44,052 bases of DNA from Oscillatoriales cyanobacterium M59_W2019_021. Lineage in GTDB: Bacteria; Cyanobacteriota; Cyanobacteriia; Cyanobacteriales; Geitlerinemataceae. Position 1 is the stretch's first letter. Each line of letters begins with the position of its first letter. Of this stretch, positions 7,741-38,843 are shown one piece after another. Under the pieces are notes generated by a model that ran no database searches, was not told where the DNA came from, and was given only the letters and a program-made list of their open reading frames with translations. Position numbers and translations under genes: made by a program. Where the stretch lies: assembly GCA_015295945.1 (NCBI GenBank), contig DVED01000117.1, positions 1-44,052 on the forward strand, given 5' to 3'.

Positions 7741-8186
7741 GAAGTAGAGAAAGTAGGTGATGGTGGTTGCGGGTTGAGTATCTCAATCTGAGGAAAGTCC
7801 GGGCACCCGAAAGACCAGACTTGCTGGGTAACGCCCAGTGCGAGCGATCGTGAGGATAGTGCCACAGAAACATACCGCCAATGAGTCATCCGTCAACGGT
7901 CATTTGTCATTTGTGTTTGCAGATGACAAGGGATAAAAGACGAAGGACAAATTTGGTAAGGGTGCAAAGGTGCGGTAAGAGCGCACCAGCAGCATCGAGA
8001 GGTGCTGGCTCGGTAAACCCCGGTCGGGTGCAAGGTCGAAGGAACGACGGTTGGTCTTTTACCCGTTCCGCCAAGAGCGAACCGCAAGAGGCGTTTGGTA
8101 ACAAGCGTCCCAGATAGATAACCGCCCTCCGGCTGCATGGCAGTTCGGGGAACAGAACCCGGCTTACGACTACTTTCTCTACTTTT
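7741..8186 (+). ncRNA. rnpB: RNase P RNA (type A, cyanobacterial), with enlarged internal hairpin
   Basis: The conserved core is plain: GAGGAAAGTCCGGGC near the 5' end, AGACCAGACTTGCTGGGTAA, CACAGAAACATACCGCC, GGTCTTTTACCCGTTCCG and ACAGAACCCGGCTTA at the 3' end. The ends are set by a perfect 15-bp P1 helix between 7742-7756 and 8170-8184. This RNA is the catalytic part of RNase P, which cuts 5' leaders from precursor tRNAs. Between the conserved ACCGCC and GGTAAGGGTGCAA blocks (7880-7954), where relatives carry a short hairpin (about 20-30 nt as remembered), there are about 75 nt. That stretch contains TTGTCAT/ATGACAA arms and resembles the window's intergenic repeats. Apparent open frames on either strand here are incidental. 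Confidence 0.96.
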
Positions 8187-38666: not shown

Positions 38667-38706
38667 GTTTGGGGTGTGGGGTTTGGGGTTTGGGGTTTGG
38701 GGTTGG
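38667..38706. repeat. tandem TTTGGGG heptamers upstream of carB
   Basis: Five consecutive GTTTGGG/GTGTGGG-type heptamers lie immediately before the carB start codon on its 5' side. The same unit is seen at 1690-1706. Confidence 0.75.
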
Positions 38707-38811: not shown

Positions 38812-38843
38812 TTGTCATTAGTCCTTCGTCATTTGTCATTTGG
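38812..38843. repeat. ATTTGTC repeat resembling the rnpB insert
   Basis: ATTTGTCATTAGTCCTTCGTC and a further ATTTGTCATTTGG lie downstream of the small gene at 38876. The words ATTTGTCATTTG and (inverted) GACGAAGGAC are both found in the extra hairpin of rnpB at 7901-7950. Confidence 0.65.

Follow-up and report, generated by a model that had tools for sequence, protein, structure and literature searches.

The window analysed here, i.e., the whole 44,052-nucleotide stretch of contig DVED01000117.1 of Oscillatoriales cyanobacterium M59_W2019_021, harbors on its forward strand the gene rnpB (positions 7749..8181) coding for the class A RNase P RNA, which is needed by cells for making tRNAs. The locus matches the covariance model RF00010 with a score of 241.4 bits (gathering score 100) over its complete length (positions 1-367 of 367), and it is the sole RF00010 match across the 4.99-Mb genome. 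Its most conspicuous part is an insert of 75 nt (7880..7954, forward strand) between ACCGCC and GGTAAGGGTGCAA, which the Rfam alignment places in the distal part of helix P12. As read directly from the letters, the insert comprises a 5' arm of five degenerate heptamers (GAGTCAT CCGTCAA CGGTCAT TTGTCAT TTGTGTT; 7883..7917, forward strand), the loop TGCAG, and a 3' arm of four (ATGACAA GGGATAA AAGACGA AGGACAA; 7923..7950, same strand). Matches at a lag of 7 nt amount to 39/68 in the whole insert vs. 17.5 ± 3.6 in dinucleotide shuffles, none of which (0/5000) scored as high; of the other lags between 2 and 20, only lag 14 was equalled in fewer than 10/5000 shuffles. The periodicity resides mostly in the 5' arm (21/31 matches, 0/5000 shuffles) and is weaker in the 3' arm, where 60/5000 shuffles attained the observed value. 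The predicted fold is one hairpin (−29.7 kcal/mol, z = −4.4; 0/200 shuffles as good), with TTGTCAT (7904-7910) lying opposite ATGACAA (7923-7929). Both the enlarged hairpin of about 75 nt and the pairing of these two arms had been proposed in a preliminary description of this DNA and are borne out; at the same time, the heptameric build spans the whole insert, beyond the words and arms singled out there.

The same repeat family occurs in the spacers. An intergenic array on the forward strand of the window (GTCATTA GTCCTTC GTCATTT GTCATTT; 38812..38843) has the 14-nt double unit GTCATTTGTCATTT in common with P12 on the same strand, and GACGAAGGAC of P12 is the reverse complement of GTCCTTCGTC in this array, so the words said earlier to be common to both places were indeed recovered. 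The genome-wide count suggested at that stage yielded 54 copies of ATTTGTCATTTG, a word located at 7902-7913 within the insert, and none of its reversed control; GTCATTTGTCATTT is present in 45 copies and is missing from all five other genomes of the same family in which it was counted. A BLAST search of the insert against its own genome returned 47 places at E ≤ 10, the insert itself included. An identical donor was not found for any P12, and outside rnpB the best match of the window's insert is confined to its positions 1-31 (94% identity); two further matches, with 71-73% identity, extend over 67-70 hairpin positions. Similarly built hairpin copies are thus present elsewhere in the genome as a minority, and predicted folding with z < −2 was recorded for 2/40 intergenic stretches carrying the word. 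In the array contexts examined, GTCATTT is often mixed with GGGGTTT, GGTTATT, and GGTTAGT units, and GTCATTT is possibly not the commonest unit of this genome. Tandem GGGGTTT units are also found in the window itself (38680-38706), ca. 100 nt before the array at 38812-38843, and arrays combining the two unit types, GTCATTT and GGGGTTT, are met repeatedly across the genome.

Short tandemly repeated repetitive sequences (STRR) of cyanobacteria consist of tandem heptanucleotide units, and the arrays of this type inside the RNase P RNA of heterocyst-forming strains are reportedly heptameric and lie in P12. The insert at 7880-7954 conforms to this description in its tandem heptanucleotide units, its many dispersed genomic copies and its location in rnpB P12. 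Hence, the idea of the preliminary description that rnpB has captured a repeat holds insofar as the hairpin is made of the spacer repeat of its own genome, and fails insofar as the repeat was thought to differ from that of heterocystous strains, for it likewise consists of tandem heptamers, and in this order P12 commonly holds repeats of that kind. As a STRR, the insert is ordinary; what is unusual is the sharp contrast, documented below, between a conserved core and a repeatedly exchanged helix. To judge by its title, the report on STRR sequences in RNase P RNA of heterocyst-forming cyanobacteria (Vioque 1997, Nucleic Acids Res 25:3471) concerns the same likeness, i.e., heptameric tandem repeats inside cyanobacterial rnpB; as far as that title shows, the correspondence of P12 with a repeat of its host genome and the replacement in near-identical cores would be additions made here. 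Among the literature matches listed (titles and abstract openings), none dealt with P12 repeat exchange or with rnpB heptamers outside heterocystous strains; subscription papers were thinly covered, and this is weak evidence of absence.

Dispersed heptamer repeats, e.g., TAACTGA, have been described in cyanobacteria and Beggiatoaceae with a strain-specific distribution and 7-nt indels (PMC4679880). TAACTGA is a unit of the 3' arm in many of the P12s examined, and the dispersed heptamers are of the same sort; those in the cited work are, however, mostly intergenic, and its text does not contain the word rnpB.

A survey of 340 genomes of the order revealed inserts matching a long pattern (57-117 nt) in 131 of them and a short P12 pattern (7-67 nt, a range overlapping the long one) in at least 186. 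Full P12s were analysed from 155 genomes; 106 of these are at least 57 nt long and comprise 104 of the 131 pattern matches together with G001 and G029, the other 27 matches staying outside the set (genomes, genera, contigs, and loci are designated below by our own labels where required). An additional 25 named loci, chosen by heptamer, were excluded from the period statistics. The best period was 7 in 99 of the long P12s, 14 in two, and another in five, and z ≥ 3 at lag 7 was obtained for 101/106 long P12s vs. 0/215 rnpB windows outside P12. Predicted folding gave z < −2 in 100/106 and z < −3 in 87/106. A chance origin of the heptamers is rejected on the lag-7 statistics of the window insert and of the 106 long P12s, and an assembly artefact is rejected because the same build is present in contigs of several Mb (contig C1 of G199, 6.66 Mb; of G239, 7.06 Mb; and of G297, 5.46 Mb).

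The heptamer of P12 varies from lineage to lineage. Among the named records with a P12 of the GTCAT class are ones from Calothrix, Nostoc, Iningainema, Tychonema, Microcoleus, Symploca, and Hydrococcus. Two of these genera, Tychonema (Oscillatoriales) and Hydrococcus (Pleurocapsales), belong to groups not known to form heterocysts; the carriers here extend beyond the heterocyst-forming strains of the 1997 system. In the 12 P12s of the GTCATT class, GUC/GAC triplets appear as regularly spaced clamps that hardly vary. Covariation, sought in these 12 sequences as a proof of selection at the RNA level, was not found: there were no compensatory changes inside P12, and the three pairs changed on both sides all lie outside it.

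Five rnpB cores of genus g88 (P12 removed) are 96-99% identical over 340 nt and carry P12s of four heptamer types as distinguished by eye (GTCATTA, GTTAGGA, TTTAGAT, and AATTAAA), the identity of P12 being 30-59% between the types and 85% within the one seen twice. The same picture emerged in g82 (core 99%, P12 38%), in g119 (97% and 42-46%), and in g39, where G119 differs from three congeners (96-97% and 33-38%). Slow growth of a single ancestral hairpin is consequently rejected as the sole cause in these four genera, and replacement is favoured over it, since cores this close bear unrelated P12s. Grouping by shared 9-mers, a rough rule (90/3000 shuffled pairs also share a 9-mer), revealed more than one P12 type in 12/19 genera with at least two long P12s available; the figure is 12 with 8-mers and 14 with 10-mers, and g88 displays three types under the 9-mer rule and four only with 10-mers. 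Close relatives with one type may still differ in unit number (65 nt in G277, 72 nt in G297). Both arms of P12 change together, as is evident from the 100 of 106 long P12s with z < −2.

The comparison with relatives proposed in the preliminary description showed a short P12 of 29-37 nt in 10/12 other genomes of the same family with P12 available. An enlarged hairpin of unrelated sequence in the relatives, which had been named as the sign of slow helix growth, was partly seen, but in each of the two other genomes of the family with a long P12, the heptamer found there is also abundant genome-wide. This is apparent from word counts in the genomes G000 (that of the window), G001, and G002, all of one family: 45, 0, and 0 for GTCATTTGTCATTT; 0, 31, and 29 for the word from the P12 of G001; and 0, 19, and 338 for that from G002, with 27 genomes searched. 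Across an 80-genome panel, carriers exceeded non-carriers for 5/5 words after subtraction of the P12's own copies (Mann-Whitney p = 0.0086, 0.0024, 0.0075, 0.0003, and 0.00015); these values are indicative only because carriers are often relatives and the panel was picked with the P12 types, although not the counts, known. Overall, the P12 word is enriched in its own genome in most of the carriers tested. Still, the strict rule that P12 carries the most abundant heptamer of its genome is ruled out: for 3/5 words the top count falls in a non-carrier (G257, G100, and G317), and the repeat-rich genomes G121 and G184 possess a short P12. The Microcoleus-like genomes of genus g7 (G014, G045, G182, G210, and G319) are a counter-example to simple capture, having only 0-3 copies of their P12 word GAGATTG outside P12; in G217, the P12 word likewise has no copy outside P12. 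Genus g7 is better explained by growth in place, or by persistence of a repeat family that has since vanished elsewhere, than by recent capture.

P12 thus seems to be a permissive site that takes up hairpin repeats, as a rule of the type present in the host genome, and exchanges them for others, since the heptamer differs between lineages while the near-identical g88 cores hold four types. We consider it probable that P12 is rebuilt from the heptameric repeat of the same genome, copied in as a hairpin unit and open to overwriting by other heptamer families. According to this scenario, P12 is a peripheral stem tolerating many stable hairpins, and the genomes of the order hold short arrays of a heptamer that varies between lineages, some of them being hairpins. 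Such a hairpin could be copied into P12 as a unit at the DNA level, e.g., by recombination, gene conversion, or template switching; copying as a unit would then explain why both arms change together with their pairing kept. Later, the hairpin might be overwritten by another heptamer family, and afterwards the unit number may drift through slippage. Selection would act mainly as a filter for the foldability of P12, with the insert presumably retained in the mature RNA and nearly neutral for RNase P. A unit with ends is hinted at by leaders of non-heptamer sequence at loci picked for containing the heptamer word: CTTTT[A/T]CAGTGA is common to P12 and the arrays in 8/10 loci fetched from G002, and two of the three arrays fetched from G044 begin, like its P12, with CTAGAAA(A)GTCAAAAGTC.

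The principal alternative is growth in place, i.e., expansion of a short P12 seed through slippage in steps of 7 nt, the two arms of the quasi-palindrome correcting each other, where similar slippage biases yield similar heptamers elsewhere and no copying between loci takes place. It would account for the near confinement of the g7 word to rnpB (in G210, 3/3 matches are within P12) and for the difference in unit number between G277 and G297. However, cores with 96-99% identity leave little time for stepwise change to unrelated heptamers in both arms, and the leaders that P12 and intergenic arrays have in common in G002 and G044 do not follow from it; as a general explanation, we regard it as unlikely. 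The same leaders give no direction and would also suit an origin of the hairpin in rnpB with subsequent spread into intergenic regions. The arrays of the window's genome, however, mix GTCATTT with GGGGTTT and other units absent from P12, the conserved flanks of rnpB were not seen beside the arrays examined (a subset of those in the genome), and the many non-carrier genomes with high counts point in the opposite direction as well, so P12 as the donor is the least probable of the explanations weighed here.

The heptamer hairpin might also have a selected function in RNase P, e.g., in protein binding or in tuning of stability, as its recurrence in many families and the pairing kept in nearly all long P12s could suggest. 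Yet its sequence is unconserved between congeners, the short pattern (overlapping the long one) is matched in more than half of the surveyed genomes, and P12 is described, with reference to Vioque, as sometimes dispensable in cyanobacteria (PMC2858038). Such a function therefore seems highly improbable, and rebuilding of P12 from the genome's own repeat remains the preferred reading.

A close parallel is known from another structured RNA. In Nostoc, both arms of the P6b hairpin of the trnL(UAA) group I intron consist of degenerate heptamers, which fall into two motif classes (TDNGATT and NNTGAGT), and the region has been proposed to be replaced in its entirety (PMC3488679, PMC4476775). The locus described here is rnpB, and ARAGORN found no tRNA in the window; P12 works alike without being a member of that system. 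It differs from P6b in the RNA concerned and in the number of motif classes, many in rnpB P12 vs. two, and a match to dispersed genomic copies was not seen in the available text on P6b. By analogy, one may tentatively envisage heptameric hairpin repeats as small gene-less mobile elements for which RNA stems, such as rnpB P12 and perhaps trnL P6b, serve as recurrent safe landing sites, repeatedly overwritten. If this possible, although rather doubtful, reading were true, one essential gene would offer a readable record of the repeat family active now or formerly in each cyanobacterial lineage. Irrespective of it, a known oddity, the repeats in some cyanobacterial RNase P RNAs, turns into a replicated natural experiment in which an essential ribozyme has had one helix exchanged many times while its core stayed nearly unchanged. 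It shows how freely a peripheral RNase P helix can vary, provides a single gene, easy to align, at which the mobility of cyanobacterial heptamer repeats can be tested, and argues for excluding P12 from rnpB phylogenies.

Several P12s displayed further peculiarities. In two different lineages (L114 from Nostoc sp. CHAB 5824 and L078 from G029), the heptamer array inside P12 contains a second palindrome, GCCAG...CTGGCG, of ca. 45-50 nt, so that within rnpB one repeat sits inside another. The P12 of L051 (G054) and, in part, that of L070 (G026) is the non-heptameric palindrome TGTAGAGACGT...ACGTCTCTACA, which we take to be a common cyanobacterial intergenic repeat; P12 may have taken up yet another kind of repeat there. 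In G022, two separate contigs, C226 and C150, each match RNase P RNA partially, in its P12 region, perhaps reflecting a split gene or a second copy. The rnpB of L115 (JAAUUT010000001.1), a contig titled Candidatus Gracilibacteria, exhibits the cyanobacterial P12 pattern and heptamers, so the contig probably represents a mislabelled or mixed bin. When phage records were searched for similarity to the rnpB region, one record was returned, MW495066.1 (Microcystis phage MaAM05), with an RNase P RNA of its own: a complete class A molecule (L262:1464-1863, 251.8 bits) with no annotated feature beneath, which is either phage-borne or bacterial DNA within the record.
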